Shown here: piece by piece, positions 22,962-30,619 of the stretch
Layout: the number at the start of each line of letters is the position of its first letter
Position numbering within the stretch: the stretch's first letter is position 1
NCBI RefSeq assembly: GCF_026344005.1
Contig: NZ_JAPKNH010000001.1
Span: 930,001-994,000 of the forward strand
DNA from: Kaistia terrae
Lineage (GTDB): Bacteria; Pseudomonadota; Alphaproteobacteria; Rhizobiales; Kaistiaceae
Direction: 5' to 3'
Length of the DNA stretch: 64,000 bases
Position numbers and translations under genes: made by a program
Notes under the pieces: generated by a model
The model's input: only the letters and a program-made list of their open reading frames with translations
Told to the model about the DNA's origin: nothing
Database searches by the model: none

Positions 22962-24782
22962 TCAGGCCGCGAGGCCTCGGGTCAGATCCATCGCCTGCCG
23001 TTCGAACAGCCTGCGATAGATGCCGTCCTCGGTGCGGACGAGCTCTTCATGCGTGCCTTCTTCCGCGATGCGGCCACGGTCGAAGACCAGCAGGCGGTCG
23101 AGCGCGCGCACCGTCGACAGGCGGTGGGCGATGACGATCGCCGTGCGGCCTTCCATCAGCCGCTCCATCGCCTCCTGGATCAACGCCTCGGATTCCGAAT
23201 CGAGGCTCGATGTCGCCTCGTCGAGGATCAGGATCGGCGCGTCGGCCAGGAAGGCGCGGGCCAGCGCCACGCGCTGGCGCTCGCCACCCGACAGCTTGAC
23301 GCCGCGCTCACCGACCAGCGTGGCATAGCCCTGCGGCAGGCGCTGGACAAAGTCATGCGCGTTGGCAAGCTTCGCCGCCTCGATGATCTCGGCCATGGAT
23401 GCGCCGGGGCGGGCATAGGCGATGTTGTCCGCCAGCGAGCGGTGGAACAGGATCGGCTCCTGCTGGACGATCGCGATCTCGCCGCGCAGCGAGGACTGCG
23501 TGACATGGGCGATGTCCTGCCCGTCGATGACGATGCGGCCATCCGTGACGTCGTAGAGACGCTGGATCAGCTTGACGAACGTCGTCTTGCCGGAACCGGA
23601 ATGGCCGACCAGGCCGATCTTCTCGCCCGCCTTAATGGTGACGTCGAAATCCTTGTAGAGCGGCGTTTCGTGGCCGGCATAATGGAAGGTGACGTCGTCG
23701 AAGCGGATTTCGCCAGCGCCGACGACCATCGGCACGGCATTAGCCTTGTCCTCGATGCCAAGCGGCTGGGCATGCAGGGCGACCAGTTCCTCCATGTCGT
23801 TGACCGAGCGCTGCAGGTTGCGGATATGCACGCCGACATCGCGCAGATAACCCTGCAGCAGGAAGAAGGCCGTCAGCACGAAGGTGACGTCGCCCGGCGT
23901 CGCCTGGCCATGCCACCAGAGCAGCAGCACGGTGCCGATGATCGCGCCGCGCAGCAGAACGAGCAGAATGCCCTGCGCCGTGCCGTTATTGGTGCCGCGG
24001 ATCCAGGTACGCGAGGTGCGGGCGCGCCATTTGGCGACGACGCGCGACAGGCGGTTGTCCTCGCGCTTCTCCGCGCCGAACGCTTTCACGACGGCATTGC
24101 AGGAGACCGCATCGGCGAGCGCGCCGCCGAGCTTGGTGTCCCACTGGTTGGCGAGGCTGGCGGCCGGCGCGACGTAGAACAGCGACAGCGACACGGCAAT
24201 GGCAATGTAGAGCACCGAGCCGACAGCCACGATCAGGCCCATCACCGGCCAGTAGGAGCCGAGCAGGATGGTCGAGCCGATCAGCATCACCACCGAGGGC
24301 AGCAGGGCCAGCAGCAGCGTGTCGTTCAGCAGGTCGAGCGCCCACATGCCGCGCGTGATCTTGCGCACGGTCGAGCCGGCAAACGCATTGGCGTGCCAGT
24401 TGGTCGAGAAGCGCTGGACGCGGTGGAAGGCTTCGCCGGCGATATCCGTCATCATGTTCAGCGTCAGCCGGATGATGGCGAGGAAGGCGCAATGGCGCAG
24501 CGCCATCATGCCGACGCCGAGCGCCATCAGCGCGCCAAACGCATGCAGCGCCGCCGAGAGGGCCTCGTCGCGGTTCGTGATGCCACCGGCGATGGCGTCA
24601 ACGAGGCGGCCGGCATAGAGCGGCAGCAGCACGTCGGCCATGGTGGAGACCAGCACGGTCAACGCGATGCCGACGATCAGCAGCGGCTGCTTGCGCCAAT
24701 GGGCGAAGGTGAAGCCCAGCACGTTGGAAAAGGCGTCGGCCCGCCATCGGATACGAAAGCGGGGGAATTTGAATCGAGTCAT
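22962..24782 (-). CDS. MsbA-like ABC exporter (fused membrane and ATPase domains)
   Basis: Half-transporter of 606 residues, working as a homodimer or with a partner. About six membrane segments (roughly residues 30-320) precede the nucleotide-binding domain: Walker A GHSGSGKTT, Q-loop VQQEPILFH, signature LSGGERQR, Walker B ILILDEATS, H-loop AHRLST. This fits lipid, peptide or multidrug export; the substrate cannot be read. It is preceded by a 280-bp leader holding a promoter, a 20-codon ORF and three hairpins, the last overlapping its poor ribosome-binding region (GGATTGTCACC before ATG). It ends 50 bp from the DUF454 gene. Confidence 0.9.
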   Translation of the reverse strand: MTRFKFPRFRIRWRADAFSNVLGFTFAHWRKQPLLIVGIALTVLVSTMADVLLPLYAGRLVDAIAGGITNRDEALSAALHAFGALMALGVGMMALRHCAFLAIIRLTLNMMTDIAGEAFHRVQRFSTNWHANAFAGSTVRKITRGMWALDLLNDTLLLALLPSVVMLIGSTILLGSYWPVMGLIVAVGSVLYIAIAVSLSLFYVAPAASLANQWDTKLGGALADAVSCNAVVKAFGAEKREDNRLSRVVAKWRARTSRTWIRGTNNGTAQGILLVLLRGAIIGTVLLLWWHGQATPGDVTFVLTAFFLLQGYLRDVGVHIRNLQRSVNDMEELVALHAQPLGIEDKANAVPMVVGAGEIRFDDVTFHYAGHETPLYKDFDVTIKAGEKIGLVGHSGSGKTTFVKLIQRLYDVTDGRIVIDGQDIAHVTQSSLRGEIAIVQQEPILFHRSLADNIAYARPGASMAEIIEAAKLANAHDFVQRLPQGYATLVGERGVKLSGGERQRVALARAFLADAPILILDEATSSLDSESEALIQEAMERLMEGRTAIVIAHRLSTVRALDRLLVFDRGRIAEEGTHEELVRTEDGIYRRLFERQAMDLTRGLAA

Positions 24783-24791
24783 GGTGACAAT

Positions 24792-24818
24792 CCGGATGCG
24801 TCAATGACGCCGATCCGG
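24792..24818 (-). promoter_or_regulatory. hairpin masking the ABC exporter ribosome-binding region
   Basis: A 12-bp stem interrupted by a 2-nt bulge: CCGGAT-GCGTCA on one side, TGACGC-CG-ATCCGG on the other, 1-nt loop (plus-strand view). On the transcript its 3' side contains the GGA that would serve the exporter ATG ten bases later, so folding should lower translation. Two further stems lie upstream: 24844-24878 (GCGAGCC/GGCTCGC with an inner CGCGC/GCGCG) and 24920-24950 (CCGCGG/CCGCGG). Confidence 0.6.
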
Positions 24819-24960
24819 TCCCTGAAAAAGGAGAAATAGGACTGCGAGCCGACGCGCAATCGGGGCGCGGAGGCTCGCGGCTAAACAGGTTGTTGTCGAA
24901 AGGGCGGGTTCTCAGAGAGCCGCGGAATGGAACCGGGGCGATGCCCGCGGAACGTCCGAA

Positions 24961-25023
24961 TTAGCTGCGGGGAAAACCCGAAACCGGCTTTACCGGGGCG
25001 ACGATCATATGCAGCGATGCCAT
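24961..25023 (-). CDS. candidate 20-codon leader peptide of the ABC exporter
   Basis: A short ORF, ATG to TAA, encoding 20 residues that end in VAPVKPVSGFPRS. It has a good ribosome-binding site (GGGGGA, 5 nt before the ATG) and begins roughly 30 nt after the start predicted from the promoter at 25059-25086. The exporter ATG lies about 180 nt beyond its stop. A short, well-initiated, Pro/Val-rich ORF followed by hairpins is the layout of attenuation leaders that respond to ribosome stalling. Conservation has not been tested; an inner ATG at 25008 would give 15 residues. Confidence 0.5.
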   Translation of the reverse strand: MASLHMIVAPVKPVSGFPRS

Positions 25024-25058
25024 GCAAATCCCCCGTGCTCGGAGTTGAAGAGGCGTTT

Positions 25059-25086
25059 TTTATAGCTGCGACGTCATGGATTGCAA
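25059..25086 (-). promoter_or_regulatory. sigma-70-like promoter for the ABC exporter leader
   Basis: On the minus strand TTGCAA (-35), 16-nt spacer, TATAAA (-10). Matches are 4/6 and 5/6 to consensus. The transcript start would fall near 25052, giving an mRNA leader of about 270 nt before the exporter. Confidence 0.55.
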
Positions 25087-25172
25087 GTGCGGCCCGCGCA
25101 GTTTGCGCGCCGCGTGTCGTCGCCGCAACAGGGGAACGGACGTGTTTTGCGCGAAAAGGGACGCCAAAATGC

Positions 25173-30544: not shown

Positions 30545-30619
30545 GGGCGGTTAGCTCAGCGGGAGAGCATTCGCTTCACACGCGAAGGGTCACTGGTTCA
30601 ATCCCAGTACCGCCCACCA
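30545..30619 (+). tRNA. tRNA-Val, anticodon CAC
   Basis: Complete cloverleaf: acceptor GGGCGGT/ACCGCCC, D stem GCTC/GAGC, anticodon stem TTCGC/GCGAA with loop TTCACAC (anticodon CAC, reading GUG), T stem ACTGG/CCAGT with loop TTCAATC. The CCA end is encoded (30617-30619). No integrase or repeated 3' end is nearby. Confidence 0.97.

Follow-up and report, generated by a model that had tools for sequence, protein, structure and literature searches.

A conserved short-ORF leader with a probable hairpin-bridged ribosome-binding site ahead of an ABC exporter gene in Kaistia and related Alphaproteobacteria

The exporter gene and the elements of its leader

The DNA analysed here (the window) is a stretch of 64,000 nucleotides from Kaistia terrae, in which an ABC exporter gene on the minus strand is preceded by a promoter-like site, a short upstream open reading frame (uORF) and a leader with several putative helices. 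The features are listed in the direction of reading of the exporter, with Shine-Dalgarno sequences abbreviated as SD and the kind of support given in brackets.

25059..25086, minus strand: promoter-like site with -35 box TTGCAA (25086-25081), a spacing of 16 nt and -10 box TATAAA (25064-25059) (sequence)
25029..25034, minus strand: SD of the uORF, GGGGGA, in many relatives of the GGGAGG type (sequence, relatives)
24996..25034, minus strand: helix P1, in which the uORF SD (25034-25028) pairs with the C-rich codons 8-10 (25002-24996) (covariation in Kaistia, enrichment across genera)
24961..25023, minus strand: uORF of 20 codons, MASLHMIVAPVKPVSGFPRS, with the stop TAA here and TAG in most relatives (list of open reading frames, comparison)
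24920..24938, minus strand: helix P2, about 23 nt past the uORF stop (covariation in Kaistia)
24844..24878, minus strand: helix P3, followed by a pyrimidine-rich tract at 24843-24824 (covariation in Kaistia, sequence, composition in relatives)
24819..24823, minus strand: likely exporter SD AGGGA, directly 5' of P4 (sequence, relatives)
24792..24818, minus strand: hairpin P4, a folded spacer between SD and ATG which ends 9 nt before the ATG (covariation, relatives, swap test)
22962..24782, minus strand: ABCB-type ABC exporter of 606 aa with the domains ABC_membrane and ABC_tran and its ATG at 24782 (domain search)

By sequence, the solved relatives of the exporter include ABCB19, P-glycoprotein, an ATM1-type exporter, Sav1866 and MsbA. 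An identity as the lipid A exporter MsbA was rejected on the score of 354.7 bits against NCBIfam TIGR02203, for which the cut-off is 602, and the protein likewise stays well under the curated cut-offs of the other 24 NCBIfam models listed. The exporter is present in all 14 Kaistia genomes, and matches at 1e-180 occur in 89 of 397 scanned genomes of the order, belonging to 23 of 141 genera. No common operon partner was seen among the next-downstream ORFs of nine other loci, four of which fall into four different Pfam families and five into none.

The boxes of the sigma-70-like promoter proposed in the initial, sequence-only reading of this DNA are present as claimed, with a transcript start predicted at about 25050-25054. 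From this position the uORF would begin after about 27-35 nt, with the promoter-like site itself lying ~35-40 nt ahead of the uORF. A strict consensus promoter scan did not pick up TTGCAA-16-TATAAA. For the relatives, a pattern of a TTGGC- or TTGNC-type box followed by a TATAA-type box was applied, which was chosen after some of the loci had been seen and which the site of the window does not fit. This pattern fits 34 of 81 relatives, all of them with the start of the box 62-69 nt before the uORF ATG, as opposed to 0.8% of mononucleotide shuffles, so that similar boxes recur at a fixed distance from the uORF.

Recurrence of the uORF and of a probable folded ribosome-binding site

The comparison was based on two sets of exporter loci. 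The first one combined 14 Kaistia genomes with the best 80 of 528 related loci, from which seven Kaistia duplicates were dropped (94 to 87), and Kaistia and 30 other loci had been inspected before uORF and promoter criteria were fixed. The later set started from 80 upstream stretches outside Kaistia, left out the partial match G384 and comprised 75 loci after removal of five stretches identical to earlier ones; the rules for the uORF and the loose hairpin were carried over unchanged, and the relatives are not independent. Exporter start codons were chosen by rule, some of which look wrong and will have led to lost matches, and L052, with 199 nt upstream only, was scored as a miss.

In all 14 Kaistia genomes, a short ORF lies 225-241 nt upstream of the exporter, sharing its start context and stop position among the genomes. 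Its length changes by only one codon, in frame, being shorter in two genomes; thus, the ORF loss or frameshift in relatives which the sequence-only reading had named as a refutation was not seen. The script found a uORF in 81 of the 87 distinct loci of the first set. By comparison, the script found one in 133 of 2790 Markov shuffles and before 25 of the 402 other genes in these loci (one of the 25 being the uORF of the L111 exporter itself, counted by mistake), or before 21 of 203 once genes with a same-strand ORF up to 250 nt away are set aside. By the same rules, 62 of the 75 later loci feature a uORF, compared with 5.5% of 1500 shuffles. Accordingly, the proposal of a conserved uORF leader with a promoter-like site ahead of the exporter was borne out. 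A control on the reverse complement gave 29 of 93, probably because the C-rich anti-SD element described below reads as an SD on the other strand.

Three of six re-inspected misses (the later set holds 13) turn out to have a uORF that begins with TTG behind a good SD, at -210 (L145), -207 (L153) and -201 (L155) from the exporter start, and that the ATG-only script had missed. L151 and L157 have a different upstream region with the inverted repeat GGTCCGTTCGTAACGGAYC, in which no such uORF was found and for which the start codons are uncertain. Four genomes hold two exporter copies, of which only one is preceded by a uORF according to the script (L132, L128, L188 and L177 with, the second copies L163, L164, L192 and L196 without), and the leader therefore seems to go with one paralogue. 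Within the genome of the window, a 541-base DNA search revealed no second copy of the leader. Another ABC exporter of this genome, 39% identical (L002, G000:C12:404892-406634, minus strand), is preceded by the short ORF MEMILLNIRPAICPRQATNAAL with a GGGAGG SD, its own start codon being uncertain; the exporters L003-L006 and L008 have no such uORF by the same script, and L007 is without an identifiable start.

The three hairpins noticed after the short ORF in the first reading were recovered, and the further helix P1 was found in addition. In the 14 Kaistia leaders all four helices covary: P1-P4 together contain 22 cells with changes on both sides compared with 8.5 in shuffles, none of 500 reaching 22, and standard pairs occupy 91.3% of cells, with the structure taken from the consensus fold of the same Kaistia alignment. 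Alone, the leader of the window folds little better than shuffles (z -1.7, 12 of 200 equally good), and the case for structure hence rests on comparison.

A GGA inside the last hairpin had been taken as the exporter SD, hidden there until ribosome stalling frees it. The likelier SD is AGGGA; by eye, the GGA is missing in several relatives, e.g., L039, L047, L050, and L093. According to a strict rule, 110 of 162 leaders have an SD directly next to a hairpin whose end lies 8-10 nt ahead of the ATG, compared with 8 of 366 control genes (L052, L098, and L111 excluded) and 49 of 3240 shuffles. The limits of this rule were chosen after the distances in both sets had been seen, and the starts of the control genes are the first ATGs of long ORFs, many of which may be wrong (97 of 366 with an ordinary SD), so that the comparison with control genes is favoured; the shuffle background is independent of such starts. 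Under the loose rule, a hairpin between SD and ATG was obtained for 68 of the 87 loci of the first set (8% of shuffles) and for 58 of the 75 later ones (9.7% of shuffles). An ordinary SD at 4-12 nt is found in only 22 of 162 exporter leaders.

The stem sequences of these P4-type hairpins differ among loci, and the arms pair with their own partners: 85 of 140 form full 6-bp helices, compared with 26.7 when arms are swapped between loci (maximum 43 in 500 trials; after removal of the 22 of 162 loci that have no SD in -45 to -22), and among the 5' arms without CCGG the values are 27 of 49 and 7.1. From own-partner pairing and fixed geometry it follows that the hairpin most likely loops out and thereby bridges SD and ATG at the right distance. 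Sequestration of the SD by the last hairpin, and with it the release by stalling proposed at the outset, was accordingly abandoned, as the SD stands outside the hairpin in these 110 of 162 leaders. Initiation helped by an mRNA structure between SD and start codon reportedly occurs at the ribosome-binding site of bacteriophage T4 gene 25, as Nivinskas et al. are said to have described in 1999; that is a single phage gene, whereas the hairpin studied here recurs before one exporter family together with a uORF.

The SD might still be controlled from further upstream. In a translational attenuation, two structures would compete according to the position of the ribosome on the uORF: local pairing of the P2 5' arm, or its pairing with the exporter SD together with the P4 5' arm, the latter being the OFF state. 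In Kaistia, CCGGUUCC (24936-24929, the 5' part of P2) can indeed pair with GGGACCGG (24822-24815), and this pairing holds in 85.7% of cells over the 14 genomes, a value reached by 4 of 500 shuffles, with a U-A to C-G change at one pair. Nevertheless, both-side changes amount to 5 cells compared with 3.8 in shuffles, 163 of 500 of which reach 5, and a universal anti-SD partner within the leader was not found among the loci with both uORF and hairpin, as 8 of 65 leaders at the 5% level do not point to a consistent partner in other genera. Translational attenuation of this type is therefore regarded as unlikely.

Alternatively, P4 could itself be the switch, which would provide a working ribosome-binding site in the folded state and, once opened, leave the SD ~36 nt from the ATG and the exporter off. 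Heat, a helicase, a small RNA or part of the leader could open the hairpin. In combination with the uORF, such a switch would amount to a reversed riboregulator, with structure as the ON state, before one exporter family in many Hyphomicrobiales and Azospirillum; such a role of P4 is considered a tentative and somewhat doubtful option. The bridged site may simply serve to start translation behind a pyrimidine tract, or regulation may act on the hairpin itself.

Constraint on the uORF and composition of the leader

The peptide encoded by the uORF differs between genera. M-A-S is kept in 13 of 14 Kaistia peptides, with the remainder varying more. For 38 of 40 representatives (L095 and L107 left out), which also served for the stop-codon and composition analyses, pairwise pN/pS of the uORF was calculated by group: it is lowest, at 0.34, in four Aminobacter and highest, at 1.15, in Bosea, while Kaistia lies between with 0.56 (seven closest members) and 0.77 (12 members), as does Devosia with 0.87. 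Among the three frames, that of the uORF has the lowest pN/pS in the groups of Kaistia and Aminobacter and not in Bosea and Devosia, which means that the coding signal is not general. Judged from these comparisons, the peptide appears weakly held at best.

This variation bears on the possibility that the uORF encodes a drug- or metabolite-dependent arrest peptide of the ErmCL/TnaC kind. Arrest-peptide leaders are known before resistance genes such as that of MsrD, and by eye the short peptides of the exporter loci often place a Pro near codons 8-10 after hydrophobic residues and end in basic ones; however, the peptide is not kept between genera, the pN/pS values indicate weak constraint in most groups, and the frequent Pro near codon 9 may come from the C-rich anti-SD element. 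The sequence-specific arrest peptide implied by the first reading thus found no support, peptide-specific arrest was rejected as the main model since the peptide varies, and an arrest of this kind is viewed as very unlikely. ErmC/Cat-type attenuators, with their leader uORF before a resistance-type gene, are recognised by two traits, an arrest peptide and sequestration of the SD. The exporter shares the leader uORF ahead of the main gene but shows neither trait; accordingly, an Erm/Cat-type translation attenuator was discarded on the lack of a conserved arrest peptide and of sequestration of the main-gene SD, although Kaistia has a candidate anti-SD partner.

Other features of the uORF recur. 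UAG serves as the stop codon in 29 of 38 representatives and 46 of 62 later loci, compared with 86 of 331 background genes; the window itself uses UAA. Termination at the kept UAG may be slow. Moreover, a complement of the SD hexamer, with at most one G-U allowed, occurs within uORF codons 4-15 in 17 of 40 representatives, compared with 6.6 expected and with none of 400 shuffles reaching 17; in the stretch beyond these codons there is no enrichment (9 compared with 10.1 expected). As the element is carried by under half of the representatives, it does not apply to every locus. The duplex energy of the whole SD segment is slightly better than in composition-matched shuffles (mean z -0.6, 5 of 81 at 5%).

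Between uORF and exporter, C exceeds G in all 38 representative leaders. In a stretch of fixed extent, this holds for 37 of 38 leaders and 119 of 213 background upstream regions, and a difference C-G of at least 0.08 is reached by 27 of 38 and 45 of 213, respectively. An excess of C over G is a weak sign of a rut site. A scan for terminators placed one weak terminator-like site, 24861-24840, in the leader of the window (5 sites in 4 kb, 2.7 expected). An amino-acid operon attenuator of the trpL type was ruled out, as the peptide is without a single-codon run and the leader has this one weak site only.

These features also relate to a further reading, in which uORF and hairpin set a constant low translation of the exporter or protect the mRNA without any signal. 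Conserved structure can serve such constitutive tuning, yet a separate uORF ~130-180 nt ahead, the UAG preference and the recurring bias of C over G would look costly for a constant setting, which renders this reading distinctly improbable.

A proposed translation-sensing leader and its known counterparts

The closest described system found is the leader of duf1127_1 in Sinorhizobium meliloti, which belongs to the same order. According to the available part of that report, the uORF starts from nt 31 of a 279-nt leader, the uORF SD can pair with the first ten codons, and synonymous changes in the C-rich codons 3, 5, 9, and 10 relieve the attenuation (Kothe et al., 2025, PMC12218461). The RNA and not the peptide matters, a C-rich stretch past the uORF is needed, and the one candidate intrinsic terminator was inactive; Rho is considered by the authors, and induction occurs with tetracycline or chloramphenicol (PMC12218461). 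In terms of these described features, the exporter leader resembles duf1127_1 in an SD pairable with C-rich early codons and in a C-rich leader of about 270-280 nt without a clear intrinsic terminator; a distance of ~30 nt from the transcript start to the uORF, mapped there, is predicted here, and by sequence comparison the RNA rather than the peptide may matter here too. Unlike the exporter leader, that of duf1127_1 precedes a DUF1127 gene, a hairpin-bridged ribosome-binding site is not among the features described in the available part, and its induction was measured, whereas that of the exporter leader is predicted (PMC12218461). The initial statement that no described counterpart with this peptide is known stands, as far as searched, but in mechanism duf1127_1 comes close. 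Among the five DUF1127 genes of the genome studied here, no clear uORF of this kind was found, with one weak candidate and four without.

Given the shared geometry and sequence features, the same logic is proposed for the exporter: a cis-acting leader which would sense the translation status and control the ABC exporter, combining a duf1127_1-like leader with a ribosome-binding site on a folded spacer. We rate this combined model, built on sequence comparison and analogy, as roughly evenly balanced between right and wrong. Fast translation of the uORF would leave its C-rich codons and the C-rich leader exposed, and most transcripts would end early, probably via Rho. A ribosome slowed in the first codons, as under tetracycline- or chloramphenicol-like stress, would mask the C-rich element, and a shortage of ribosomes would allow the uORF SD to pair with the C-rich codons with the same effect. 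Once the element is masked, transcription would reach the exporter gene and translation would start from the hairpin-bridged site. The leader plausibly responds to translation inhibitors, and a removal of ribosome-targeting compounds by the exporter may be guessed.

Further systems share parts of this logic. As far as the accessible text of the respective report goes, the uORF of toiL-topAI in Escherichia coli answers several classes of ribosome-targeting antibiotics, with Rho-dependent termination, although its downstream ribosome-binding site is occluded by structure, whereas the exporter SD is bridged and apparently free (PMC12121999). Similarly, translation of the uORF bp2923 (CruR) in Bordetella decides on Rho-dependent termination before a transporter gene; according to the part of the source at hand, the product of this uORF is conserved, senses metal and has an arrest motif at its C-terminus, unlike that of the exporter uORF (PMC9426467).

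With regard to novelty, a search of Rfam with 24700-25150 gave no family match up to E 5, and across the window as a whole Rfam recognises only a tRNA at 30545-30616. The same search on 13 relatives gave two sub-threshold matches, both in L183. One of them, a SorX match near the leader (L183:375-459, 26.2 bits, cut-off 46.6), may reflect chance or a shared CU-rich stem-loop. Among the literature matches listed, judged by title or opening of the abstract, none describes this leader ahead of this exporter, by which an absence from print is weakly supported. Attenuators with a uORF and structured spacers behind an SD are each known; their combination before one exporter family looks new.

Such a recurrent RNA leader, which is not listed so far, may enable soil- and plant-associated alphaproteobacteria to raise an exporter when translation is disturbed. 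This would extend a mechanism described, as far as the available part of the report goes, for one gene of S. meliloti. Besides, the hairpin-bridged ribosome-binding sites offer many natural examples on which the control of initiation by structure between SD and start codon could be tested.
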